Assembly (NCBI RefSeq): GCF_025290835.2
Contig: NZ_JAOCQD020000001.1
Location: forward strand, 1,116,001 to 1,180,000
From: Aquabacterium sp. OR-4
Lineage (GTDB): Bacteria; Pseudomonadota; Gammaproteobacteria; Burkholderiales; Burkholderiaceae_C
Direction: 5' to 3'
DNA length: 64,000 nucleotides
The position numbers were made by a program, and so were the translations under genes. Shown here piece after piece: positions 3,529 to 18,707 of the stretch (the first letter of the stretch is position 1; each line of letters begins with the position of its first letter). The notes beneath the pieces were generated by a model. The model ran no database searches. It was not told where the DNA came from and was given only the letters and a program-made list of their open reading frames with translations.

Positions 3529-4745
3529 CAGACCATCCCGTTGCGGAGCGCGGCTCGGTACACCGCCACGGTGTCCTCGCCACAGCGCTGCCAGGCGTGC
3601 CGCACGCTCACCTGGGCATACGCGGCCTCGGCCAATGTTTGCAACGGCCAGTCGCCCCGTGCAAGCTCCAGTAATCGGTCGGTCAGGTCACCGGCGTCAC
3701 CGGCGCGGAATGTCAGGCCCGTCGACCCATGTGTTACCACCTCCACCATGCCATCGATGTCGCTGGTCAGCACTGGCAGGCGGTGGGACATGGCCAGCAG
3801 CACGACACCGCTCTGGTAAATGTGGTCATAGGGCAGGACGGCGAGATCTGCGGCCGCGAAGAAGCGCGGCAGCTCCTCGTTCGGGATGTAGCGGGCATGG
3901 TGCTGCACCACGTCGGGGCCGAGCAGTTGCTGCATGAGCGCCGCGAGCGCCGGGCCATCGGCGTCGGCCATGGAGCCTGCCACCAGCAGCTTCAGGCGGC
4001 CCGCGCCGCGCGTGCGCGCCTGGGCCACGGCGTGGATGAGCAGGTCGAGTCGCTTGACCTTCTTGCACTGTCCGAAAAAGAGCAGCACCAGATCGTCCGC
4101 ATGCAGGCCCAGCGAGGCGCGAGCCGCCTGCTTGGCCGGCAGCGCCGCGAGCAGACCGACATAGTTGCCATGTGGCACGACATGGATGCGCGACGCGTCG
4201 ACGCCGAGCTTGTGCTCCAGCGTGGCGCGTGCCGTTCGGCTGTGCGCGATCACGGCGGCACAGTGCCGGTACAGCCGCCGGAGGATCGAGACGTTCTCGC
4301 CAGCCCGGAACGAGCCGACGTCGTGGGCCGTGACCACCACCGACAGGCCAAGCAGACGCGCGAGCAGGACGTTGGCGTATTCCAGCGGCCCGACATGGAA
4401 GAAGTGGAAGTGAACCAGTTGGACGCCACGTCGCTTGCAGGTGGCAAAGGCCTGGAGTGACGCGGCGGCGAAACGCAGGGCGCGCCGCCATTTCGGATCG
4501 GGCCCGAACACGCCGCGGTAGACCTCCTGTGTCTCATGGCCAGGGCCGCTCGCAGGGTAGGTCGACGAGGTGAACAGCAGGGTCTTCGTCCCGGCCGCGG
4601 CCAGTGCAGCGCAAAGGGCGTGGTCATAGAAGTCCATGCCACCGTGGGAGCCGACGGGCTCCATGACCGCAACCGACAGTGGCGCGACGCCAGCCGTGCT
4701 GGGCGCGGCAGGGGGGGGTGTGGAAACGATTGGCGCGTCAGCCAT
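3528..4745 (-). CDS. Family 4 glycosyltransferase
   Basis: 405 residues with a GT-B fold. The N-terminal acceptor domain contains the glycine-rich turn EPVGSHGGMDFYDH near residue 30. The C-terminal donor domain has LLFFGQCKKVKRLDLLIHA near 200 and a late acidic/glycine segment (LPYDHIYQSGVVLLAMSHR) matching the EX7E-like region of GT4 enzymes, although the canonical glutamates are not clear. It transfers a sugar from a nucleotide donor to the growing repeat unit. Codons 10-12 contain an uninterrupted run of eight C on the coding strand, so slippage there would frameshift the gene at its start. The 3' end overlaps the next gene. Confidence 0.92.
   Translation of the reverse strand: MADAPIVSTPPPAAPSTAGVAPLSVAVMEPVGSHGGMDFYDHALCAALAAAGTKTLLFTSSTYPASGPGHETQEVYRGVFGPDPKWRRALRFAAASLQAFATCKRRGVQLVHFHFFHVGPLEYANVLLARLLGLSVVVTAHDVGSFRAGENVSILRRLYRHCAAVIAHSRTARATLEHKLGVDASRIHVVPHGNYVGLLAALPAKQAARASLGLHADDLVLLFFGQCKKVKRLDLLIHAVAQARTRGAGRLKLLVAGSMADADGPALAALMQQLLGPDVVQHHARYIPNEELPRFFAAADLAVLPYDHIYQSGVVLLAMSHRLPVLTSDIDGMVEVVTHGSTGLTFRAGDAGDLTDRLLELARGDWPLQTLAEAAYAQVSVRHAWQRCGEDTVAVYRAALRNGMV
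4711..4718 (-). repeat. C8 homopolymer in the 5' coding end of the GT4 gene
   Basis: Eight consecutive G on the + strand (C on the coding strand) fall in codons 10-12 of the glycosyltransferase gene, within a Pro-Pro-Pro triplet. Homopolymers at this position cause phase variation in some surface-glycan genes of other bacteria. In a genome this rich in GC the tract may be chance. Confidence 0.6.
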
Positions 4746-6063
4746 GCCTGGTGCGGAGCAGCGCCCGTCCGAAGTGCAGCATTGAGATGTAGAACAGCGT
4801 CTGTTCGACGAAGAACACCAGCGACCCTGTGGTCACGGAGGTCAACAGCAGCGTTGCCAGGCATCCGCCCAAGCCCAACAGGAAAGGCCGGGCGCTGAAG
4901 CCGGCCGACTGTGCGCCCAGGGCGCGCAGGCCGCGCCAGGCCAGGACATACTGGTAGCTGAAGGCCAGCAGTCCAAATACGCCATAGACGAAGATCACGC
5001 CCAGGAAGCCCAGGTCACTGGGGTGCAGGTAGTCGAACAAGCCCTTGTAGCCATCGTTCCAGCGATTGCTGATGGTGCCGGTGCCGAACCACAGATGTTG
5101 TTCAACCCAGGGCGTCACGGTGGCCACCTGGAGAATGCGGGCATTGGCAGACCAGTCGTCGACGCTGTCGGCCCCTGACAGCGCTGCAAAGGCGTCGGTG
5201 TATTTGGCCGACAGCAGGTCCAGCCGGTCTGGCGCCAGCAGCAGCGTCAGGCCGAACCCCGCTGCGAACAAGCCCACGCCCGTCGCCACATTGCGCAGCA
5301 TGGCCTGACCGCGCCGGCGCGACAGCGCGGCCAGCAGCAGGAAGCTCAGCAGCATGGCCACGTTGAGCACGCGCCCGGTATTGCCACCGAAGATATAGAG
5401 CAGGAAGGGCACGCATCGGGCATACCACTTGGCCCGGCCGAGCAGCAGCGCCTTGGCAAAGTAGTAGAAGGCACCAAAGATGACGAAGGTCATCGGCAGG
5501 TTGAACTGGTTGTAGACCCCGCCGCCGTCCGTGACCAGGTTGCCCAGGTCGCTGTAGTTGTTAGGGTCAAGCAGCAGCAGCACCGGGCTGCAGATGCCGA
5601 GGTTCAGCCAGGCCAGCCAGACGAAAGCCTGCTCCAGTTCAACCATGCGGATTGCGCCGCGATGCAGCAGGGCGGTAAGTACCAGGCCGAAGGGCGCCAG
5701 CAGCAAGGCACGCTGTGTCGCCAGGCCCAGCCAGGCCGGCTGGCCGAACACCAACACCGCCATCGTGGCACCCCAAAGCGGCGCGGCAAGGATGATGAGC
5801 CAGGTGTACCGCGGCAGTACCCCCAGAGGCACCGAGCTGACCGAGCGGCGCAGGTAAACAGCCGAGGCGAAGGTTGCCAGGGCCATCAGGTCCAAGGTCC
5901 ACTCGAACCCGGGAACGTAGCGGCCGAACGAGAAGAACATCGGCAGGATCAGCATCAGCGCAGCCACACGACCCTTGCGTATGCGATCAGGGCTGGCCGC
6001 GCGCTGGCGGCCGACGGCGGGCCGCGCAGGCGAGATCCCGGGATGCATGGACGCTGTGCTCAT
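4738..6063 (-). CDS. Wzy-like O-antigen/polysaccharide polymerase (polytopic membrane protein)
   Basis: 441 residues and about ten to twelve hydrophobic segments, starting with VAALMLILPMFFSF near residue 35. A large, more polar segment at roughly residues 270-350 would be the periplasmic loop typical of Wzy/WaaL proteins. Sequence conservation in this family is poor, so the call rests on topology and position between glycosyltransferase genes. It would polymerise undecaprenyl-linked repeat units at the periplasmic face. The start at 6063 gives an ATGA overlap with the upstream GT2 gene; an open stretch to 6213 lies inside that gene and is rejected. Confidence 0.72.
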   Translation of the reverse strand: MSTASMHPGISPARPAVGRQRAASPDRIRKGRVAALMLILPMFFSFGRYVPGFEWTLDLMALATFASAVYLRRSVSSVPLGVLPRYTWLIILAAPLWGATMAVLVFGQPAWLGLATQRALLLAPFGLVLTALLHRGAIRMVELEQAFVWLAWLNLGICSPVLLLLDPNNYSDLGNLVTDGGGVYNQFNLPMTFVIFGAFYYFAKALLLGRAKWYARCVPFLLYIFGGNTGRVLNVAMLLSFLLLAALSRRRGQAMLRNVATGVGLFAAGFGLTLLLAPDRLDLLSAKYTDAFAALSGADSVDDWSANARILQVATVTPWVEQHLWFGTGTISNRWNDGYKGLFDYLHPSDLGFLGVIFVYGVFGLLAFSYQYVLAWRGLRALGAQSAGFSARPFLLGLGGCLATLLLTSVTTGSLVFFVEQTLFYISMLHFGRALLRTRHG

Positions 6064-7127
6064 GCCGGCTCCTGGCTGGCCACCCGGCGCTCGGTGAACC
6101 ACTTCGGATCGGGTTGGCGACGACCGAGCAGCACCGTCAGGATCACCCAGGCGTTGGGCCTGGACCCGGGGGCGCGGAGGAACTTCAGCGCTCGCGCCAG
6201 CAGCGTGAGCCACACCAGTGGCCAGTAGCGTCGCGTGTGGCGGGCGGCAAAGAGCAGCTTGCTGCGGGTCTGGAAGAAATTGGCCAATCGGCTGCCGCTG
6301 CTGTTGCCCTTCTCGGAGCCGATGCTCGCGCCCACCTTGTGATAGACCAGCGACCGGGTGGCCACACCCAGGCGATACGGCGCTGGCAGGCGCACCGACA
6401 GGTCAATCTCCTCGTTGTAGAGGAAGTACTCTTCGCACAGCGGGCCCATCAGCCGCAGTGCGGCAGCGCGGATGAACATCGAGGCGCCGGACACATAGTT
6501 GATCCGGGCCTCGGCGTAGGCGTCGGTGATGCCTGGGTCGTAGACCGTGCCCATGCCCAGCGACCAGCCGCGTCCGGACCTCAGGGAGTACCAGGCACCG
6601 CCGTACGACTGCACGTGGCGATCGGCATCGGCATACAGCACCGTTGCACCGCAGATGCCGACCTGGGCTTCGGCCTGCACCTTGTCGAGCAGCCTGGACA
6701 AGGCATCCGCGGCAACCCAGGTGTCGTTGTTCAACAGCCAGTAGTGATCGGACACCCAGTGCGCATCCGCTGCAGCGATGCCGATGTTGTTGCCGGCGGC
6801 GAAACCGTAGTTGTCCAGGCCCTGCACCACCAGAACCTGCTCGACACTGCCTGGCGCGCCAGCGAACGCTGACAGCTGCCGAACGCGGCTGCTTTCCGGC
6901 GCAGGGATGTTGGCATGGCGGGGCCGCCACCCATGGTTCTGCAGGTGCTGCGTCAGGCGACTGACTGAACCATCGGAAGATGCGTTGTCCACGACCACCA
7001 CACGCACCACGGCGCCCTCGGCACGCAGTGCCTGCAAGGACTGCAGGCAGGCGATGGAGTCGTCTCCACCATTCCAGTTCACGATCACCACGGTGACCCC
7101 GGTGCTGGTGGGCGCAGCGCTGCTCAT
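6060..7127 (-). CDS. Family 2 glycosyltransferase (rhamnosyltransferase-like)
   Basis: 355 residues from ATG 7127; a GTG at 7148 is an alternative start that would overlap the upstream gene. The GT-A fold begins with VTVVIVNWNGGDDSIACLQS. The metal-binding DxD position is represented by LLNNDTWV near residue 115, as in many rhamnosyl- and galactofuranosyl-type GT2 enzymes. A C-terminal basic/hydrophobic region probably sits on the membrane. It adds one sugar of the repeat unit; donor unknown. The 3' end overlaps the Wzy-like gene. Confidence 0.9.
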   Translation of the reverse strand: MSSAAPTSTGVTVVIVNWNGGDDSIACLQSLQALRAEGAVVRVVVVDNASSDGSVSRLTQHLQNHGWRPRHANIPAPESSRVRQLSAFAGAPGSVEQVLVVQGLDNYGFAAGNNIGIAAADAHWVSDHYWLLNNDTWVAADALSRLLDKVQAEAQVGICGATVLYADADRHVQSYGGAWYSLRSGRGWSLGMGTVYDPGITDAYAEARINYVSGASMFIRAAALRLMGPLCEEYFLYNEEIDLSVRLPAPYRLGVATRSLVYHKVGASIGSEKGNSSGSRLANFFQTRSKLLFAARHTRRYWPLVWLTLLARALKFLRAPGSRPNAWVILTVLLGRRQPDPKWFTERRVASQEPA

Positions 7128-9336: not shown

Positions 9337-10707
9337 TCATGGGCTGGCTGTGGCCGCGGCGCGATACGCCCGCCGCCTGTTGACGAAGATGACCGAACCC
9401 CAGGCCAGACCGCAGGACAGCGAGCAGACCAGGTAGCCCGCCATGATGCCGGTGGCCCCGTACGACCCTGCCAGCAGCAAGGTGCTGGCGGCGATGCTGG
9501 CGCCACTGGCGAGGCTGACGACCAGGAAGGGCTCTTCTTTGTGCGCGCGCAGGTAGGCGGCCTGCGCAATCATGATGTAGTTCGAGACGGTAGCCAGCAC
9601 CAGCAGCGCGAAGGGCCCACTGGCGAGCAGCCGGCCGCCCAGCGTCATTCCATGGGTCTGCAGCACATGGACCAGCCCGACGACGGCAACACCGCCGGCG
9701 CACAACAGACCCAGCGTTGCCAGGGTGGTGCGCCGCCAGAGCTTGTCCAGTTGTGCATAGTCGCGCTGGGCGATCAATTGCCCGAAGCGTGGCACCTTGG
9801 TGTTGAGCCATGCCAGGGGCAGCCCCATCAGTGCGTTGGCGATGGCCAGGCTCAGGCCCATCCTGCCGGCCTCTACCGGCCCCTGCGCCGAGAACAGCAC
9901 TGGAACGAAGAGCTGGAAGATGAAGTAGCCGCTGATCCAGCTGAGCGCGATCCGCCATTGAAAGGGCCAGATCTCGTGGCGCCACGAGATGCCACGGATC
10001 GCCGACGTTGCGTGGTGGCGCATCTGACGGAAGAAGGGACCGTGCACCACCAGCAGCATGGCCACGGCCGACAGCGCCATGGCGCTGTTCCACGCGGGAA
10101 GCGCCAGCAGGCCGCCGCCGCCCAGCAGGGTGAACCATGCCACGATGCTGCCCAGCACGCCCTGGATCAGGCGGAGTCTGGCCACCTGGGCGACACACTG
10201 GCATCCCTCCAGCAGCGACATCACGGGCTGGGTGACGAGGTTCAGCGCTGCGGCGGCGATCAGCCAGAACCAGGCGGCCTCCCATTGCACGGTTGCGGAC
10301 TTCGCCGAACTCGTGATGAACCACCAGCCCGTGGGGCCCAGCACGGCGACGATCACCAGCGTGAGCAGCCCGTACCAGCGCAGCACCAGCTTGAACAGCG
10401 AGCTCAGGCGCGCAAGTTCGCCGGGGTCGCCGCCCAGTCGTCCGTCCGCCAGCCAGTGCAGGCGGGCCATGGCGTGGCTGGCGAACTGCGTCACCACTAC
10501 GCCCAGGCCCAGCTCGAACAGGATCTGGGCGCCCACGATGGCGGAGAAGGTGTAGTAGTAGCCCTGCTCTTCGGCAGACAGGAAACGGACGACCAGCGCA
10601 AGCGTGACGAAGCTGGCGAGCAGGCTCCAGACACGGGCAGCGAGCGCGTAGACCACGGCCCGGTCAAGACCGGCTGCGACCGACAACAATCGGCTCATGC
10701 GCTCCAT
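9337..10707 (-). CDS. Wzx-type oligosaccharide flippase (MATE/MOP superfamily)
   Basis: 456 residues with about twelve to fourteen hydrophobic helices. The first (VVYALAARVWSLLASFVTLALVVRF region, residues about 16-40) and the following YYYTFSAIVGAQILFELGLG segment are typical of polysaccharide-exporter MOP flippases. The protein would move undecaprenyl-diphosphate-linked repeat units across the inner membrane for the Wzy-like polymerase encoded downstream. The start could be ATG 10707 or ATG 10698; neither has a strong Shine-Dalgarno site. The in-frame stretch upstream to 10884 overlaps the transketolase gene and is rejected. Confidence 0.88.
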   Translation of the reverse strand: MERMSRLLSVAAGLDRAVVYALAARVWSLLASFVTLALVVRFLSAEEQGYYYTFSAIVGAQILFELGLGVVVTQFASHAMARLHWLADGRLGGDPGELARLSSLFKLVLRWYGLLTLVIVAVLGPTGWWFITSSAKSATVQWEAAWFWLIAAAALNLVTQPVMSLLEGCQCVAQVARLRLIQGVLGSIVAWFTLLGGGGLLALPAWNSAMALSAVAMLLVVHGPFFRQMRHHATSAIRGISWRHEIWPFQWRIALSWISGYFIFQLFVPVLFSAQGPVEAGRMGLSLAIANALMGLPLAWLNTKVPRFGQLIAQRDYAQLDKLWRRTTLATLGLLCAGGVAVVGLVHVLQTHGMTLGGRLLASGPFALLVLATVSNYIMIAQAAYLRAHKEEPFLVVSLASGASIAASTLLLAGSYGATGIMAGYLVCSLSCGLAWGSVIFVNRRRAYRAAATASP

Positions 10708-10780: not shown

Positions 10781-11695
10781 CTAGCGCCAGAAGCTCGACA
10801 AGGTCCGGCCCAGTCCGCCGAGTTCGTTGAGCATCGCCTGGCTGCCGACGGTTCCGCAAACCACGGGGTCCAGCGCATCCGCACGCAGCCGCGGCAGCAG
10901 GTCTGGCCGAACGCACAGCGCCTCCTGGAGCCAGGAGCCGAAGCCGCCGTCCCGCAGATGATCTTCCATGCTCAGCACATGGGCGAAGCGCTCGACCTGC
11001 TCGGCCTGTCCTGACTTGCAACCCATTCCCCACAGCGGCAGCGAGTGGACGGCCAGCGCCGGATCAGCGGCCTGGCGCCAGTGCTGCATGGCCAGCGCCA
11101 GCGTGGCGCCGGTGCATAACACGGTGCGGCTGGCCTGCGGCTGCGCCTGCGGCGGCGATACCGCGAGCCAGCGGCCCGGACTCACCGTGGGCACACTGTC
11201 GTGAAAGGAGGGCTCACCCGCCTTGCCCAGGCGCAGGTACGAGGGTTGCGGGTGCTCGACCAGATAGCGCATGCAGGCGCGCACCTCCATCGGGTCACCC
11301 GGGGCCGCCATGAGCAGGTTCGGGAAGCTGCGGAACAGCGCGTAGTCCTGCACGGCGTGATGCGAATAGCCCAGCGCACCGTAGGCGAGACCGCCGCCGA
11401 CGGCCACCACGGTCACTGGTAGCTGGTGATAGGCCACGTCGTTGCGGATCTGCTCGGCGCAGCGGAAGCTGGGGAAATTCGCGATCGAATAGGTGAAGAC
11501 GTGATAGCCCTCGGAGGCCATGCCGGCCGCCAGACCGGTCATGTTCTGCTCGGCCACGCCGGCGTTGATGAAGCGGTCGGGGAACCGGTCGGCGAAGGGC
11601 TCGACCACCGAATAGCCCAGGTCGCCCACCACCAGCGCGATCTGCGGATGCACGGCGGCCAGTGCCACCAGTTCGTCGATGAAGGCGTTTCTCAT
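10781..11695 (-). CDS. Transketolase C-terminal-type subunit (pyrimidine and C-terminal domains)
   Basis: 304 residues corresponding to the second half of transketolase. The segment FINAGVAEQNMTGLAAGMA at about 48-66 contains the glutamate that activates the thiamine diphosphate aminopyrimidine, and GYSHHAVQDYALFRSFPNLL at about 118-137 is the substrate-phosphate/active-site histidine loop region. It pairs with the N-terminal-type subunit encoded just upstream (ATGA overlap) to form a split alpha2beta2 enzyme. Location inside a CDP-dideoxysugar cluster, not beside pentose-phosphate genes, suggests a dedicated role in sugar nucleotide synthesis, possibly transfer of a two-carbon unit to a keto-sugar. 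Confidence 0.9.
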   Translation of the reverse strand: MRNAFIDELVALAAVHPQIALVVGDLGYSVVEPFADRFPDRFINAGVAEQNMTGLAAGMASEGYHVFTYSIANFPSFRCAEQIRNDVAYHQLPVTVVAVGGGLAYGALGYSHHAVQDYALFRSFPNLLMAAPGDPMEVRACMRYLVEHPQPSYLRLGKAGEPSFHDSVPTVSPGRWLAVSPPQAQPQASRTVLCTGATLALAMQHWRQAADPALAVHSLPLWGMGCKSGQAEQVERFAHVLSMEDHLRDGGFGSWLQEALCVRPDLLPRLRADALDPVVCGTVGSQAMLNELGGLGRTLSSFWR

Positions 11696-12507
11696 GCGGC
11701 AGGGCCTCCCGCAGCCACTTCGCTCAGTGCCTGGGCCAGTTGGGTGTCGTTCGGGCTGCGGTAGTGCCACTCCACCGAGCCTTCCATGAAACTCACGCCC
11801 TTGCCCTTGGTGGTGTGGGCCAGCAGCATCGATGGCTTGCCTGGCTGCCTGGGCACGGCGGCGAGCGCGCGTCGCAGGGCGTCATGGTCATGACCGTCCA
11901 CTTCGTCCACATGCCAGCCGAAACTGCGGAACTTGTCGGCCAGTGGTTCCAGGGCCAGCGTCTTGGCCACGCTGGTCAGGCTCTGAAGCTTGTTGTAGTC
12001 GACGATGGCCACCAGGTTGTCCAGGCCGTGATGGCTGGCGAACAGGCATGCCTCCCAGTTGCTTCCCTCCCCCCACTCGCCGTCGCTCAGCAGCACGAAG
12101 CAGCGCCAGTCTTGCCCGCGGCGCTTGGCGGCAAGGGCCTTGCCGACCCCGAAGGGCAGGCCATGGCCCAGCGAGCCGGTTGAAAACTCCACGCCAGGCA
12201 CCTTGTGGCTGATGTGGTTCATCAGCATCGAGTGGTCCTGGCCGTACTGATCGAGCGCGTCTTCGGTGATGAAGCCGCGGGCGGCCAGCGCCGCGTAGAC
12301 CGCCACGCAGGCGTGGCCCTTGCTGAGGATGAAGCGATCACGCGCAGGCCAGGCAGGCTCGGACGGGCGCACGCGCAGCACATCGCCGTAGAGCACGGCA
12401 ACGATGTCGCTGATGGACAGCGCACTGCCGATGTGGGACGCCTTGGCGCGATGAACCATCTTCAGCGCGCGTGCGCGGATGCCGCGGGCCAGGGCGACGG
12501 AGCTCAT
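11692..12507 (-). CDS. Transketolase N-terminal-type subunit (thiamine diphosphate domain)
   Basis: 271 residues, the length of a stand-alone transketolase PP domain. HIGSALSISDIVAVLYGDVL near residue 25 and the thiamine-diphosphate/Mg motif SDGEWGEGSNWEA near 145, ending with DYNK about 25 residues later, are visible. The first Gly of the usual GDGE is Ser here. A full-length transketolase would be about 660 residues; here the function is split over two overlapping genes, which is common for paralogues recruited to special pathways. The cofactor sits at the interface of the two subunits. Neighbours are an FkbM methyltransferase and the CDP-sugar genes. Confidence 0.9.
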   Translation of the reverse strand: MSSVALARGIRARALKMVHRAKASHIGSALSISDIVAVLYGDVLRVRPSEPAWPARDRFILSKGHACVAVYAALAARGFITEDALDQYGQDHSMLMNHISHKVPGVEFSTGSLGHGLPFGVGKALAAKRRGQDWRCFVLLSDGEWGEGSNWEACLFASHHGLDNLVAIVDYNKLQSLTSVAKTLALEPLADKFRSFGWHVDEVDGHDHDALRRALAAVPRQPGKPSMLLAHTTKGKGVSFMEGSVEWHYRSPNDTQLAQALSEVAAGGPAA

Positions 12508-13439
12508 GGGGTCTCCTGCTGAAGCTGGTCAATGAGTTCCCGGTGCGCCTCGCCATGCAGGAACGCATAGTTGGTCTCGACCGTCTCGTCGGTCACCTCG
12601 TGCATCCGGCGGGTGCCGGTGTCACCGATGCCGAAGCACACGTAGCCCAGGTCGACGAAGAACTGCAGCATGTCGTTGGGGTGGTAGCCGAAGGGTTTGG
12701 ACCACTTGCGCAGCAGTTCGGCGACGACCACTGGCCGGCTGGCGGCCAGTGTTGCCCGGCCGCCGCGGAACACCAGTAGCTCGGCACCTTCTACATCGCA
12801 CTTGATGAAGTCCGGGCGTACACCGGTGTTGGCGACCCACTGGTCGAGCGTGAGCGCCAGTCCGGTCACCTCACGCGCATCTGCCGCGTTGGCCACGTTC
12901 TTCAGCGATGCGTTCGTGCCACTGCTCGGTGCGATGTAGAACTTGAACGCGCCGCTGTCTTCGGACAGGCCGTAGTTGTAGGTCGAGACGCGTGCGCCCA
13001 GGCCGTTCTCGGCCACGTTGCGCTGCAGGTAGCGGTAGGTCGTCGGCAGGGGTTCGAACGCGTGGATGCGCGTTTCGGGCAAGCGACTGGCCATGCGCAC
13101 GGAGTACCAGCCGATGTTGGCACCGACGTCCAGGATCTGCCGGGCCTGGGCGCACAGCAGGTCCATCACCCGGGTCTCGGCCGGTTCGTAGCGACCGAAG
13201 TTCAGCACCTCGAGGGGTGCAACGCGCGCTTCGCCAGGCGGGGCATGAAGCCGGATGCCTTCTTCGCCCATCACGAAGGACACGCCTTCGTCGTTGATAC
13301 GGATTTCGCGCACGTCCGTCTGTTTCAGCGCGTCTGTGTAGGCGAACAGCGTGGTGTGGTGTTCGAACGCTGCGCGGATGAATTCCGGCTTGCCGATCTC
13401 CCCGGCGGTGAAGCGCTGCTTGAGGGCCTGAAAGCTCAT
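12504..13439 (-). CDS. FkbM family SAM-dependent methyltransferase
   Basis: 311 residues. The SAM-binding motif ILDVGANIGWYSVRMA lies near residue 98, with the acidic ribose-binding segment RIHAFEPLPTTYRYLQ after it. PDFIKCDVEGAELLVFRGG near 205 is the FkbM-specific motif (typically DVEGxE). Members methylate sugar hydroxyls of polysaccharides and glycosylated natural products, so O-methylation of a sugar in this repeat unit is likely. ATGA overlaps on both sides. The start at 13439 was chosen over an upstream in-frame extension lying in the neighbouring gene. Confidence 0.93.
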   Translation of the reverse strand: MSFQALKQRFTAGEIGKPEFIRAAFEHHTTLFAYTDALKQTDVREIRINDEGVSFVMGEEGIRLHAPPGEARVAPLEVLNFGRYEPAETRVMDLLCAQARQILDVGANIGWYSVRMASRLPETRIHAFEPLPTTYRYLQRNVAENGLGARVSTYNYGLSEDSGAFKFYIAPSSGTNASLKNVANAADAREVTGLALTLDQWVANTGVRPDFIKCDVEGAELLVFRGGRATLAASRPVVVAELLRKWSKPFGYHPNDMLQFFVDLGYVCFGIGDTGTRRMHEVTDETVETNYAFLHGEAHRELIDQLQQETP

Positions 13440-14506
13440 GGCTGAAGGGTCTCGATCATGCGTTGAAAGCCGGCTGCCGGTGACACTTCGGCTCGCCACC
13501 CCAGCGATGTCAGCCGGCTCACGTCCGGCACGAGGCGGTTGTAGGCGCTGGGGATGTAGGGCCGGTCACCGGCAAGGTAGCGGCGCTCGACCTGGAGCTT
13601 CTTCTGCGGGAACAGACCCACCAGCAACTCGGCCAGATCGGCGACCGACAGTTCACCGGCCGGGTTGGCCACGTTGTAGGGCGTTGCCGGCGTGCCCTTG
13701 AGCAGCACGGTGAAGAAGCCCGCCACGGCATCGCTGGCGTAACAGAAGGCGCGCCGGGCAGTGCCGTCGCTGTTCATGGCGATGTTCTCGTTGCGCGCGA
13801 CGTTGTAGGCGAAGTCGGCGAACACCCGGCCGTCGTCGGCCTGCAGTCCCGGCCCGTAGGTGTGGAAGGGGCGGACGATGAACGTGGGCAGCTGGTGCTG
13901 CTGGTGCCAGGCGACGCACATGGTTTCGCCCATGCGTTTGCTCTCCGCGTAGCAGGCGCGGACCGTGGCAGGATCCACCGTACCGTAGCCCGATTCGGGC
14001 AGTGCCGTCTCGCTTGATACGGCGCCGTAGACCTCGCTGCTGCTGACGAACAGCAAGCCGCGCGGTTCGCTTGACTGCCTGAGTGTCGACAGCAAGGCCG
14101 CCGTGCCCACGGTGTTGGGCAGCAGGGTGCCCACCGGGTCGCTGCCATAGAACCTCGGGCTGGCCTGGCTGGCGGCGTGCAGTACGAACTGGACGTCGCC
14201 AAGGTCTGGCACCGCGATGCTGTTGAGATCCCATGTCAGCAGGCGCAGTTCAGGGTGCGCGTCGAGCAGCGTGCCCAGCGATCGGCGTGCGCGCTCCGCG
14301 TCCCGCACCAGCGCAGTGACACGAACCGGCTGCTCAGTCTTGCCGCGGATATGCAGCGCCAGCAGCGCCCGGACCAGGTACCCCCCCAGGAACCCGCCGG
14401 CACCGGTGACGACCACATGGGAACCTGACAGGGTCTGCCATGGCAGGTCACGGGCGAGGACGGCGTCGATGTCGCCGCTGATGATCCGGGCAGAAGGAGA
14501 TGGCAT
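13436..14506 (-). CDS. Extended SDR: NAD(P)-dependent sugar epimerase/dehydratase/reductase
   Basis: 356 residues. The nucleotide-binding motif GAGGFLGGYL at about 36-45, the catalytic SSSEVYG at about 155 and YAESKR (YxxxK) at about 180 are intact. Overall it resembles nucleotide-sugar epimerases and UDP-glucuronate-decarboxylase-like proteins. It sits directly after rfbH in the leftward order, so a plausible job is reduction of the 4-keto group of CDP-4-keto-3,6-dideoxyglucose (as paratose or abequose synthases do) or of a branched-chain keto intermediate (as YerF does); this is inference. A run of seven C on the + strand lies at 14381-14387 within the gene. Confidence 0.88.
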   Translation of the reverse strand: MPSPSARIISGDIDAVLARDLPWQTLSGSHVVVTGAGGFLGGYLVRALLALHIRGKTEQPVRVTALVRDAERARRSLGTLLDAHPELRLLTWDLNSIAVPDLGDVQFVLHAASQASPRFYGSDPVGTLLPNTVGTAALLSTLRQSSEPRGLLFVSSSEVYGAVSSETALPESGYGTVDPATVRACYAESKRMGETMCVAWHQQHQLPTFIVRPFHTYGPGLQADDGRVFADFAYNVARNENIAMNSDGTARRAFCYASDAVAGFFTVLLKGTPATPYNVANPAGELSVADLAELLVGLFPQKKLQVERRYLAGDRPYIPSAYNRLVPDVSRLTSLGWRAEVSPAAGFQRMIETLQP

Positions 14507-14514
14507 GTTGTCGC

Positions 14515-15837
14515 TCAGAAACTCACGCCGAGAAACTCTTCGAGCCGGTCGGCGATGTAGTCCAGGTGTACTGGCGTGAGCGCGGGGAAGGTGCCCAGCC
14601 AGAACGTCTGGTTCATGACAATGTCGGTATTCGTCAGCTCGCCGCTGACCCGGAAGTTACGGCCGATCATGTAGGGCTGCCGCGTGAGGTTGCCCGCAAA
14701 GAGCAGCCGCGTGCCGATGCGGTGCTGGTCGAGGTAGTTCAGCAGGTCGACACGGCGGACACCCGACTCCGGCTTCAGCACCACGGGGAAGCCGAACCAT
14801 GACGGGTTGGACTTCGGCGTGGCTTCCGGCAGGTGGAGGAACTCGGCGCACGTCTGCAGCCGTGTCTTCAGGTAGTCGAAGTTGGCACGGCGCGTGGCGA
14901 TGAACTCGTCCACCCGCTCAAGCTGGGCCAGGCCGCAGGCGGCCTGCATGTCGGTGATCTTCAGGTTGTAGCCGAGGTGACTGTAGGTGTACTTGTGGTC
15001 GTAGCCCTCGGGTAGCTGGCCCAGCTTCCAGCAGAAGCGCTTGTTGCAGGTGTTGTCCTTGCCCGGTGGGCAGTAGCAGTCGCGGCCCCAGTCGCGGAAC
15101 GATTCAGCGATGAGCTTGAGTTCGGGGTTGTTGGTGAACACCGCACCACCTTCACCCATGGTGATGTGGTGTGCCGGATAGAAGCTGAGTGTTCCGATGT
15201 CGCCGAACGTGCCCACCAGCCGGCCGTCGTAGGTGGCTCCCAGCGCGTCGCAGCAGTCTTCCACCAGCCACAGGCCATGCCGGCGGCAGATGTCCGTCAC
15301 CACGTCCAGGTTGAACGGGTTGCCCAGGCTGTGCGCCAGCATGATGGCCTTGGTTTTGGGGCCGATGGCCGCCTCGATCTTGCTGGCATCGATGTTGTGG
15401 GTGGCCAGATCAACGTCGACGAAGACCGGAACGGCGCCAAACTGAAGGATGGGATTCACCGTGGTCGGGAATCCGGCGGCCACGCCGATGACCTCGTCAC
15501 CCGGACGGATGGCGCGCTCGCCCAGACGTGGCGACGTCAGGGTAGAGAACGCCACGAGGTTGGCCGACGACCCCGAGTTCACGGTGATGAGATGGCGGAC
15601 GCCGAGAAACCGGGCCAGCTGTTCCTCGAAGGCGGCGTTGAAGCGGCCAGTGGTCAGCCAGCCGTCCAGCGAGGCATCCACCATCAGCTGCAGTTCGCGC
15701 GTGCCAATCACCTTGCCCGACACCGGGACGGGCGATTCGCCGGGCACGAAGGGCTTCGGAGCGTGGGCGACCTCGGCGTACTGCCTTACCAGTTCGGCGA
15801 TCTGCAGGCGCAGTGTGTCGGGAGTCGGGGCGTTCAT
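14515..15837 (-). CDS. rfbH: CDP-4-keto-6-deoxy-D-glucose 3-dehydrase (E1), PMP/[2Fe-2S] enzyme
   Basis: 440 residues. It has the aminotransferase fold of the DegT/DnrJ family, but the PLP lysine position reads [14 protein letters not shown], with His as in E1/RfbH enzymes, which use PMP and eliminate the C3 hydroxyl. Cysteines for the [2Fe-2S] cluster are present: VEDCCDALG near residue 190 and [11 protein letters not shown] near 250 (C-x-C-x7-C). It works with the RfbI-type reductase to give CDP-4-keto-3,6-dideoxyglucose. The start at 15837 makes an ATGA overlap with rfbG. Residues and context agree, so the assignment is firm. Confidence 0.96.
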
Positions 15838-16916
15838 GAGGGATTCGTGTTGGTGTAGAGCTCGATCTGGCGCAGGCACGTCGACCGGGGATTGTCGCCG
15901 GCAAGCCATTGGCGGTGCCACGCCACGATGTGCTGCAGCGCCGTGGCCAGTGGCCAGCGAGGCGCCCAGCCCAGACGTGCACCGGCCTTGGAGATGTCAA
16001 GCTTTAGGTAGTGCGCTTCATGCGGGTGCGCGCCGGCGTCGATCGTCCAACGGCGCTGGCCGTCCCAGAGTGCAGCGAGCTGCTCGACGATCCACTGCAC
16101 CGGGCGAGCATCGTCGTCGCGCGGCCCGAAGTTCCAGGCCTCGGCATGTTGTGGCCCGCCGTTAACCAGGCCTTGTGCCAGCATCAGGTAGCCCGACAGC
16201 GGCTCCAGCACATGCTGCCAGGGGCGCGTGGCTGACGGATTGCGCAGCACCACAGGATCGTCACGTTCGAAGGCCCGCAGTATGTCGGGCACCAGCCTGT
16301 CTGACGCCCAGTCGCCGCCGCCAATGACATTGCCGGCCCGCGCCGAGGCGAGCGCAATGCCGGCGTCGGACATGAACGACCGCCGGTACGCCGATGTCAC
16401 CAGTTCCGAACATCCCTTGCTGTTGCTGTAGGGATCGTGCCCACCCATCGGCTCGTCTTCGCGGTAGCCCCACACCCACTCGCGGTTCTCGTAGCACTTG
16501 TCGGTGGTCACGTTGACGATGGCGCGAACGCTGCCGACGCGCCGGGCTGCCTCCAGCACATGCACCGTGCCCATGACGTTGGTGGCATAGGTGGTGACCG
16601 GATCGCGGTACGAGAGCCGCACCAGTGGCTGAGCCGCCAGATGCATCACCACTTCCGGGCGGAAATGCTGCATGCACGCACAGACAACATCGAAGTCACG
16701 AATGTCGCCGATCGTGCTGGACATGCCCTGCGACACCGAGGCTGCTTTAAAGAGACTGGGATCGCTTGGGGGCGCCAGCGCCAGGCCCTGGACTTCGCTG
16801 CCCATAGACTGCAGCCAGAGACTGAGCCAGCTGCCCTTGAAGCCGGTGTGCCCGGTGAGCAGCACCCTGCGTCCGCGCCAGAAGGACGGATCCACTTGCG
16901 ATCGTGTCGTCGCCAT
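15834..16916 (-). CDS. rfbG: CDP-glucose 4,6-dehydratase
   Basis: 360 residues, an extended SDR with [15 protein letters not shown] (nucleotide-binding, residues about 21-35), [16 protein letters not shown] (the T-D-K active-site segment that marks CDP-glucose dehydratases) and [11 protein letters not shown] (YxxxK) near 160. It converts CDP-glucose to CDP-4-keto-6-deoxyglucose, the substrate of RfbH. The start at 16916 lies 2 bp after the rfbF stop; an ATG at 16937 would overlap rfbF. Gene order rfbF-rfbG-rfbH is the standard one. Confidence 0.95.
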
Positions 16917-16918
16917 GC

Positions 16919-17692
16919 TCAGTCCCAGCTTTTCCATGGGGCCTTGCCTGAAGCCCACAGTTCCTCGAGCAGCATCTTGTCGCGCAGGGTGTCCATCGGT
17001 TGCCAGAACCCATGGTGCTCGTAGGCCATGAGTTCGCCTTGGTCAGACAGCGTGATCAGTGGCTCCTGCTCCCACACTGTCTGGTCGTCATGCAGCAGCC
17101 CCAGCACTTTGGGCGAGAGCACGAAAAAGCCACCATTGATCATGGCGCCGTCGCCCTTGGGTTTCTCCTTGAAGCTGCGCACCTGCCCGCCGCTCAGGTC
17201 CAGTGCACCGAAGCGCCCGGGTGGCAGGGTTGCCGTCAGGGTTGCGGCCCTGCCATGGCTGCGGTGGAAGGCGATGGTCGCGGAGATGTCCACATCGCTC
17301 ACACCGTCGCCATAGGTGAAGCAGAAGGCCTCATCCTGGGCGACATAGTCGGCCACGCGCCGCAGACGGCCGCCGGTCATCGATGTGTCTCCCGTGTCGA
17401 CCAGCGTCACCGTCCAGGGCTCGGCGCGGCGCTGGTGGACTTCCATGCGATTGCTGCGCATGTCGAAGGTGATGTCGGACATGTGCAGGAAGTAGTTCGC
17501 GAAGTACTCCTTGATGACATAGCCCTTGTAGCCGCAGCAGATGATGAAGTCGTTCACCCCATGCTGGGAGTACATCTTCAGGATGTGCCAGAGGATGGGC
17601 CGGCCGCCGATTTCGACCATCGGCTTGGGCCGGACCGAAGTTTCCTCGCTGAGGCGGGTGCCGAGGCCACCGGCCAAGATGACGGCTTTCAT
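16919..17692 (-). CDS. rfbF: Glucose-1-phosphate cytidylyltransferase
   Basis: 257 residues, the expected length. It starts with [19 protein letters not shown], the nucleotidyltransferase signature, followed by [17 protein letters not shown], specific to the RfbF type; [12 protein letters not shown] near 130 carries the metal-binding aspartate. It makes CDP-glucose from CTP and glucose-1-phosphate, the first committed step of the CDP-dideoxysugar route. A purine-rich Shine-Dalgarno (AAAGGAAA) precedes ATG 17692. The next gene is 2 bp away. Confidence 0.96.
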
Positions 17693-17711
17693 GGGTGGAT
17701 TTCCTTTCCGG

Positions 17712-18707
17712 TCAAGCGGGCGCTGAGCAGACGAAGGCGTCGGCATGGAATGATGTCGGCGCCAATCCGGCGTCCAGCAATCGCTGCCTGGCATCGCGGA
17801 TCATCACCTCGGATCCGCAGGCGTACACCTGCAGGCGCGACAGGTCGGGGCCGCGCGACAGGAGCACATCCTGGACATGCCCTCGGGCGCCGGACCAGCC
17901 TGCCGCGGCCCGGGACAAGACAGGCACCGGGGTGAACGACGCTCCGAGGGTCGACAGATCCCAGTACAGATCCTCGGCCACCCGCGCACCCCAATACACG
18001 GTGACACTGCGCGGCCGGCCGGTCTGGCGTTCGCCCGAGAGGCTTTCGAGCATGGCCTTGACGGGGGCCAGTCCGGTGCCCGTTGCCAGGAAACAGAGAT
18101 CCTGGTCGTCAATGTCGCGCAGCACGAAGCTCCCGCTCGGTCCGTGCAAGCGCAGGAGATCGTTGGTCCTGGCCTGCCCGAACCAGTAGGCACTCATGGC
18201 ACCGCCGGGGACGCTGCGAATATGCAGTTCGATCAATCGGTCAGGCGCTGGCGCATTGGCGATCGAGTAGCTTCTGCGCACGCCGCCGGGGCCGACGACA
18301 TCGACATACTGACCCGGCAGGTAGACGAAATCGCAGCTCGGGGGAAGTCGCAGACGCACACGCGCCACATCTTCGGCAAGCTTCTCGATGGACTGGATGC
18401 GGCTTGGCCAAGTACCGGCCTTGGGCAGTTGCAATGCCCCCAGGTCACTCGCCTCCAGTTGGAGATCCGATCCGGCCGTACGCGCGCAGGTGAGTATCCA
18501 GCCCAGCGCCGAGTCGTCGGCCGACAGTGCGGTTTCGGCCTGCAAGGGCCGGGTATTGCCAGACAGCACCCGGCTGCGACAGCTGTTGCAGCGGCCAGTG
18601 CGGCAACTGTGCTCAAGGGAGACGCCAGCCTTGGTCGCCGCATCTAGGATCGATTCGCCATCAGCGATGTCGAACTTCTTGCCGGAGGTCAGGGTGATGG
18701 TGTGCAC
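17712..18707 (-). CDS. rfbI: CDP-6-deoxy-delta-3,4-glucoseen reductase (E3), 2Fe-2S flavoprotein
   Basis: 331 residues from GTG 18707, chosen because homology begins at [14 protein letters not shown]; a TTG at 18794 is less likely. The N-terminal plant-type ferredoxin domain has [10 protein letters not shown] at about 34-43 plus a fourth Cys in ILTCART. The ferredoxin-NADP reductase module follows with RSYSIANAP (flavin binding) near 165 and [14 protein letters not shown] (NAD(P)H binding) near 220. It passes electrons from NAD(P)H to RfbH. The first gene of the CDP-sugar set, with a 158-bp gap upstream. Confidence 0.92.

Follow-up and report, generated by a model that had tools for sequence, protein, structure and literature searches.

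A cluster of eight contiguous minus-strand genes, running from position 18707 to position 10781 of a 64-kb stretch of the Aquabacterium sp. OR-4 genome (hereafter the window, meaning the whole 64,000-nucleotide stretch analyzed), is predicted from sequence comparison to make a C4-branched cytidine diphosphate (CDP)-3,6-dideoxy sugar for a surface polysaccharide. The branch would be delivered by ketol transfer, catalyzed by a transketolase that is encoded by two adjoining genes, termed here TktN and TktC. The probability of this assignment is estimated at roughly 0.73. The pair appears to fill the slot that the thiamine diphosphate (ThDP) enzyme YerE occupies in yersiniose synthesis, because the two enzyme types exclude one another among related clusters while the same types of short-chain dehydrogenase/reductase (SDR) are common to both kinds of cluster. 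The genes, with start codons picked by homology, are:

17712..18707, minus strand: RfbI-like [2Fe-2S]/FAD/NAD reductase, the E3 partner of RfbH (Pfam Fer2, FAD_binding_6 and NAD_binding_1; GTG start)
16919..17692, minus strand: RfbF, glucose-1-phosphate cytidylyltransferase (TIGR02623, 478 bits; cut-off 300)
15834..16937, minus strand: RfbG, CDP-glucose 4,6-dehydratase (TIGR02622, 494 bits; cut-off 278)
14515..15837, minus strand: RfbH (E1), CDP-4-keto-6-deoxyglucose-3-dehydrase (NF011936, 744 bits; cut-off 423)
13436..14506, minus strand: SDR with an Epimerase domain, the proposed branch-ketone reductase (YerF-like role)
12504..13439, minus strand: FkbM methyltransferase (TIGR01444, 111 bits; cut-off 37.7)
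11692..12507, minus strand: TktN, ThDP-binding subunit of a split transketolase (PF00456, 152.7 bits; cut-off 22)
10781..11695, minus strand: TktC, pyrimidine-binding/C-terminal subunit of a split transketolase (PF02779, 103.5 bits; cut-off 27)

None of the eight frames contains an internal stop. Four-base ATGA overlaps connect RfbG to RfbH, SDR to FkbM, FkbM to TktN and TktN to TktC, the RfbF and RfbG genes overlap by 19 bases, and gaps of 19 and 8 bases separate RfbI from RfbF and RfbH from the SDR, respectively. The gene content, the contiguity and the predominance of ATGA junctions described in the original prediction, which had been made from the DNA sequence alone, are therefore confirmed. 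So is the reported absence of a YerE homologue, as a search with the genome's own IlvB at E 1e-3 found no YerE-type enzyme in the 64-kb window; the cluster itself lacks the IlvB-like decarboxylase-family enzyme that defines a YerE-type cluster. RfbF, RfbG and RfbH exceed their cut-offs and, with the E3-type reductase, constitute a CDP-3,6-dideoxysugar pathway. RfbI was assigned from its domains only, with no NCBIfam model above cut-off. RfbH matches the solved CDP-6-deoxy-hexulose-3-dehydrase 3bcx (716 bits) from residue 35 of the long frame through the C-terminal end, including one identical stretch of 15 residues.

The adjoining TktN and TktC genes carry the transketolase domains PF00456 and PF02779, both above cut-off; PF02780 was not detected in TktC at E 1e-3. 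The closest solved relative of both subunits is the split transketolase of Carboxydothermus hydrogenoformans (6yak for TktN, 237 bits; 6yaj for TktC, 120 bits). Scored singly, the two halves (260 and 93 bits) do not attain the NCBIfam transketolase equivalog cut-off of 488 bits, which applies to the full-length protein. An identity as an alpha-keto acid dehydrogenase-2 pair was ruled out, since for both subunits the E1 model scores far below the transketolase models (for TktN, Transketolase_N 152.7 bits versus E1_dh 34.2 bits). The rest of the genome encodes three full-length transketolases above the TIGR00232 cut-off and a fourth just under it, and the TktN/TktC pair is therefore not the housekeeping enzyme. 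A second split pair of the same genome (L138:6257-10640, contig 4) lies outside the polysaccharide locus and directly adjoins a transketolase-like gene of 703 residues that scores 667 bits, just under the TIGR00232 cut-off.

TktN has at least 8000 scored relatives. GTDB species genomes were scanned with a TktN alignment and the best 80 of 404 relatives, chosen on TktN alone, were used; further loci were taken from genomes of the order and family of the window, and gene neighbourhoods were read by tblastn. In a tree of 120 concatenated TktN+TktC pairs, from which L021, L048 and L069 were left out for a missing or partial TktC, 85 tips form clade A (support 0.998), comprising 77 of the 80 scan loci, the window and seven others. 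RfbG was counted within 12 kb, and flanks were considered adequate when they extended at least 5 kb on both sides. Among the 66 clade A loci with adequate flanks, RfbG is present in 64, RfbF together with RfbG in 62, RfbH in 45 and RfbI in 11; the remaining 19 members, with shorter flanks, include 11 with RfbG. RfbG lies at a median distance of 2.5 kb in the 75 clade A members that possess it, and the 75 clade loci near a CDP-4-keto sugar pathway derive, where their records name a source, from Pseudomonadota, Verrucomicrobia and other groups. In contrast, the tips outside clades A and B number 29; of the 19 with adequate flanks, only two have RfbG, 9 and 12 kb away. The difference is highly significant (64/66 versus 2/19, Fisher P 9e-14, with the loci taken as independent though they are related). 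Clade B (six members, support 1.0) has RfbH in six and RfbG in five, with some members having been fetched because RfbG was nearby. In a sample of 200 genomes of the family, TktN reaches at least 300 bits in eight, five of which have RfbG within 10 kb.

The neighbourhood survey thus upholds the expected co-occurrence for RfbF and RfbG. Association with unrelated pathways, which the original prediction had named as evidence that would count against it, was not seen for clade A as a whole, apart from L085 and L151, and distant split transketolases do sit elsewhere. These two exceptions pair together on the tree. L151 neighbours include a DegT aminotransferase and a PseB-like 4,6-dehydratase (167 bits, under cut-off), and would fit another 4-keto sugar acceptor. 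In L085, five mutually similar open frames of 530-557 residues lie upstream of position 10001, ahead of the split transketolase pair.

The association with RfbF and RfbG (62 of the 66 loci) bears on the possibility that the pair makes a free sugar-phosphate precursor such as sedoheptulose-7-phosphate for another sugar and leaves the CDP-sugar untouched. A sister group of split transketolases (L104, L124, L126, L129, L152 and L163) sits in other sugar clusters and lends this proposal some support: L124 has an SDR resembling nucleoside diphosphate-sugar 4,6-dehydratases (209 bits, under cut-off), L152 has a GmhA-like sedoheptulose-7-phosphate isomerase (110 bits, under cut-off), and HAD- and kinase-like genes were named by eye. 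This sister group may serve a sugar pathway of its own, perhaps a heptose-derived one. For the window, however, supply of a precursor is decidedly improbable: the genome already has its three full-length transketolases above cut-off, the association is with RfbF and RfbG, and neither the exclusion of YerE nor the SDR types common to YerE-type clusters, both described below, would be explained.

The relationship to YerE was examined at RfbG loci, of which 47 were located in the 200 family genomes and 85, including the window, in 300 order genomes; 131 distinct loci were read. RfbH is present in 59 of them, and these comprise 12 with a transketolase, 21 with an IlvB/YerE-type ThDP enzyme, 26 with neither and none with both (hypergeometric P 0.0024, loci again taken as independent). 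Six of the 12 transketolase loci belong to clade A (the window, L119, L121, L159, L160 and L162) and five to clade B (L120, L136, L156, L157 and L158), while L286 is absent from the tree. In 19 of the 21 loci with a YerE-type gene, that gene and RfbH are no more than 5 kb apart; none of the 72 RfbH-less loci has one. Three of those 72 have a transketolase-type match, namely L161 (clade A), L133 (with the pair 9.3 kb away) and L260. The L260 match, at 9.0-12.6 kb beside RfbF in an RfbF-RfbG cluster devoid of RfbH, is one open frame of 669 residues and is therefore probably a single-chain transketolase, either adjacent by chance or a fused version of the same arrangement. Locus L209 has the order RfbF-RfbG-RfbH-YerE-SDR10, and its YerE-type protein matches 5ahk, an entry titled acetolactate synthase that we take to be the Pseudomonas protegens YerE homologue, with 603 bits. 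L014 (clade A) and L136 (clade B) have the order RfbF-RfbG-RfbH-TktN-TktC-SDR10, which amounts to one operon in which the ThDP enzyme has been exchanged.

YerF is the name of the yersiniose-pathway reductase. The SDR of the window passes no NCBIfam cut-off, and its resemblances to UDP-glucuronate decarboxylase (118 bits) and to dTDP-glucose dehydratase (71 bits versus a cut-off of 365) were not accepted as indicating function. The same SDR type is found in the YerE-type clusters L166 (51% identity) and L217 (44%). Three SDR types that neighbour transketolases, the window type, SDR6 and SDR10, were compared at a threshold of at least 35% identity. They occur in 14 of the 21 YerE-type clusters and in two of the 26 clusters with neither enzyme (Fisher P 3e-5), a comparison that is free of query-choice bias; when four of the latter, cut within 3 kb of RfbH, are dropped, the count becomes 2/22 (P 1e-4). 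In a tree of 71 SDR sequences, the transketolase and YerE labels are mixed in all three types with at least eight label changes, versus a mean of 13 and a minimum of 10 in 500 label shufflings, indicating some clustering by label as well. The SDR10 proteins of the YerE-type loci L209, L210, L215 and L222 are 67-76% identical to SDR10 of the transketolase locus L014. By this comparison alone, the window cluster combines a ThDP enzyme with a reductase type common to YerE clusters. The simplest reading is that the transketolase and YerE would yield analogous products from the same CDP-4-keto sugar, with the SDRs reducing the resulting branch ketone. The replacement of YerE by the transketolase pair, and the YerF role envisaged for the SDR, both draw support from these distributions, together with the linkage of clade A to RfbF and RfbG.

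In abequose and paratose synthesis, SDR reductases act on the C4 ketone, and the window SDR might likewise convert that ketone straight to an ordinary CDP-3,6-dideoxyhexose, with the transketolase pair unrelated and co-travelling by chance or regulation. The failure of the SDR to pass any NCBIfam cut-off leaves some room for this scenario, which is nonetheless most improbable given the near absence of these SDR types (2/26) from RfbH clusters that lack both ThDP enzymes, the ATGA overlaps of TktN with the FkbM stop codon and of TktC with the TktN stop codon, and the recurrence of the transketolase association across several phyla.

By analogy to the yersiniose pathway, the following route is proposed. 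RfbF, RfbG, RfbH and RfbI, whose genes are present, would convert glucose-1-phosphate to CDP-4-keto-3,6-dideoxyglucose, as is known for these families. TktN and TktC would act together as a single ThDP enzyme, drawing a two-carbon ketol (glycolaldehyde) unit from hydroxypyruvate or a ketose phosphate and attaching it to the ketone at C4. The product would be a 4-C-glycoloyl tertiary alcohol, at the step where YerE would add acetyl from pyruvate. The SDR, judging from its occurrence in YerE-type clusters, may then reduce the branch ketone, leaving a 1,2-dihydroxyethyl branch, and FkbM probably O-methylates a hydroxyl, perhaps one that the glycoloyl route alone supplies. Sister clusters have, in the place of the reductase, a DegT aminotransferase accompanied by an acyl- or formyltransferase; these might, more speculatively, aminate and acylate the branch.

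The residues of the active site were surveyed in 80 clade members of the first tree, with columns assigned by motif and their correspondence checked against 6yaj; numbers and roles are those we take to hold for Escherichia coli transketolase. The equivalents of the ThDP catalytic residues E411, H473, H26, H66 and H261 are invariant in 80/80 members, as are those of R358 and R520, which presumably bind the substrate phosphate in ordinary transketolases. The S385 equivalent is Ser in 61 and Gly in 14 members, and the ThDP motif begins with Ser (SDG instead of GDG) in 69. The canonical substrate site is not kept: the H461 equivalent is Gly in all 80, and D469 is replaced by Leu in 72 and Met in 6. 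The Carboxydothermus enzyme, in contrast, keeps the substrate-site His and Glu-Asp (THAG, GEDG), where the window pair has GGG and GALG. Because of these losses, the pair is best described as transketolase-type rather than as an ordinary transketolase. Loss of the H461 and D469 equivalents opens that side, which may make room for a bulkier ketone. These changes were rejected as proof that a CDP-sugar is used: both residues are lost in split transketolases of other pathways too, and the loss is thus permissive, not diagnostic.

The two conserved arginines suggest phosphorylated donors. Their retention in 80/80 members favours normal ketose-phosphate donors, hence a C2 unit, over the alternative that the pair belongs to the pathway and forms a different bond, with a ketone at another carbon or with a longer or different unit, giving another branched sugar. 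This alternative is unlikely, also because the C4 ketone is the natural acceptor left by RfbF, RfbG and RfbH. It does gain from two observations. ThDP relatives in the same slot vary in donor, ErwE taking longer donors with a preference for chains above C4 according to a 2025 review (PMC12247030). Clade members also occur in RfbH-less clusters with a C-methyltransferase-type gene (15/66), where the sugar differs at C3.

Several points weigh against a C4-branched CDP-3,6-dideoxy sugar made by ketol transfer. We know of no biochemistry for any clade member, and acceptor, donor and branch length are those that we infer. RfbH is missing in 21 of the 66 clade A loci, 15 of which have the C-methyltransferase-type match, RfbI is nearby in just 11, and L151 and L085 lack RfbF and RfbG. 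Three family genomes have TktN with no RfbG nearby: G425, which corresponds to L151 in clade A, and G437 and G337, which correspond to L152 and L153 outside it. Only half of the transketolases in the exclusion test are clade A, L068 carries both a transketolase pair and an IlvB-type gene (one of 115 loci), and L223, scored as having neither enzyme, has an IlvB-type fragment at its edge. The YerE-type proteins are themselves diverse, six of the 21 (including the L209 protein itself) being at least 69% identical (69-100%) to that of L209 and the rest 27-39%. The common SDR types are absent from seven of the 21 YerE-type clusters and present in two of the 26 with neither enzyme, while the corresponding count on the transketolase side, 11/12, holds by construction, since the SDR queries came from transketolase loci. 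The loss of H461 and D469 is common to split transketolases in other pathways, and the aminotransferase of L060 resembles the C4 transaminases LegC and PseC.

The differences among clade A loci extend to the genes around the transketolase. The absence of RfbH from 21 of the 66 rules it out as a universal partner, and the acceptor must therefore vary: 45 loci have RfbH within 6 kb, 15 have a C-methyltransferase-type match instead and six have neither. In the RfbH-less transketolase clusters (L061, L042, L073, L082 and others), the C-methyltransferase-type gene follows RfbG. Its domains, read on L061, are a zinc-binding and a C-methyltransferase domain, and the arrangement suggests CDP-sugars that are branched twice. 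All 66 loci have an SDR or DegT match within 6 kb of TktN at no minimum identity (SDR alone in 49, aminotransferase alone in 14, both in three); mere presence is weak evidence, as both families are common in such loci. At L060:8211-9986, the gene immediately preceding TktN encodes a fusion of a GNAT domain with a DegT aminotransferase. These domains were read on L060 only, and the gene cluster of this fusion gene, c12, occurs in 13 loci. L082 and L064 combine an aminotransferase with a separate formyltransferase, the formyltransferase domain having been read on L064 and a relative lying beside the L082 aminotransferase. Loci with the window-type SDR also hold an FkbM protein (at least 35% identity) in 14 of 16 cases when the ThDP enzyme is a transketolase and in neither of two cases when it is of YerE type; the target of the methyltransferase is possibly the extra branch hydroxyl. 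The presence of an O-methyltransferase was considered as a sign of that hydroxyl and amounts to a hint only (20/79 transketolase loci versus 1/14 YerE-type loci, P 0.18). With the 0/22 loci having neither enzyme pooled with the YerE-type loci the P value is 0.003, the queries having been taken from transketolase loci.

The yersiniose pathway of YerE and YerF is a close parallel, with the same RfbF-RfbG-RfbH front end and a ThDP enzyme in the same slot. It differs from the window cluster in using a single-chain decarboxylase-family enzyme rather than a two-gene transketolase, and the branch expected here is glycoloyl, not acetyl. Apulose-4-phosphate transketolase AptAB is also split and, working in reverse, joins a C2 ketol to a ketone, which gives a branched sugar; AptAB is catabolic, unlike the window pair. 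According to the 2025 review, YerE moves activated acetaldehyde from pyruvate onto CDP-3,6-dideoxy-4-keto-D-glucose (PMC12247030). The review also describes transketolases proposed for hydroxyacetyl transfer to a keto sugar in miharamycin and amipurimycin synthesis, and counts 13 ketone-accepting candidates, all split-gene, all from Streptomycetes and none characterized in vitro (PMC12247030). These are antibiotic pathways rather than CDP-deoxysugar polysaccharide loci, and the comparison with the window pair is by description. Alpha-keto acid dehydrogenase-2 pairs (aldgamycin, avilamycin and paulomycin) likewise constitute two-gene ThDP enzymes that put a C2 branch on a keto sugar, the branch being reduced, methylated or transaminated in some cases (PMC12247030); they use pyruvate, whereas the window pair matches transketolase models.

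Ketone acceptance by split transketolases is thus already proposed for Streptomyces antibiotics, and the linkage to CDP-sugar loci is a widespread variant. No report of a transketolase in an rfb cluster was found in the literature searched, in which such a split-transketolase family is not recognized as such. A glycan nuclear magnetic resonance review lists erwiniose and a C4-branched sugar from Rhodopseudomonas as novel, and neither the word hydroxyacetyl nor dihydroxyethyl occurs in the first 300,000 of its 362,387 characters (PMC9912281). For paulomycin, a branch ketoreductase of the AKR family has been characterized, and yersiniose ketoreduction was then called uncharacterized (PMC4753412), a gap on which the SDR types named here bear. 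On balance, we lean toward a widespread family of split transketolases that take isolated nucleotide-sugar ketones as acceptors in many phyla. As evolutionary stand-ins for YerE, they would build 4-C-glycoloyl and derived dihydroxyethyl, amino-hydroxyethyl and O-methylated branched octoses of surface polysaccharides. If true, such an enzyme would be the first transketolase demonstrated to accept ketones physiologically in the making of a polysaccharide, and it would supply sugars new to glycans. The proposal also anticipates a class of branched sugars, and the enzymes could serve as catalysts for chiral tertiary alcohols that carry a hydroxyacetyl group. The question of ketone-accepting transketolases becomes directly testable, because four known enzyme types suffice to make the acceptor, and a mass shift separates the reaction from YerE chemistry.

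The genomic setting looks like an exopolysaccharide locus, as the flanks hold candidates for a flippase and a polymerase, glycosyltransferases, and Wzz-like and export genes. Wzz-like and polysaccharide-export proteins are encoded upstream of the cluster. Downstream are three GT2-family genes, one GT1/GT4-family gene, a DUF1972 gene, a hexapeptide transferase, a Gfo/Idh/MocA oxidoreductase and two genes that have no Pfam match and were named by eye:

9337-10707: probable flippase
4738-6213: probable polymerase

Two further arrangements of split transketolases were noted. The clusters of L131, L132 and L133 contain split transketolase pairs and, in at least one of the three, a short-chain dehydrogenase, a GMC oxidoreductase and genes that by eye resemble parts of a LuxC/LuxE acyl reductase. 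RfbG is found in L133 only, approximately 9 kb away, and these clusters may encode a different ketol-transfer pathway. The polysaccharide locus L120 carries two divergent split transketolase pairs approximately 11 kb apart (at about 4.7 kb and 16.6 kb), only one of which adjoins RfbG.

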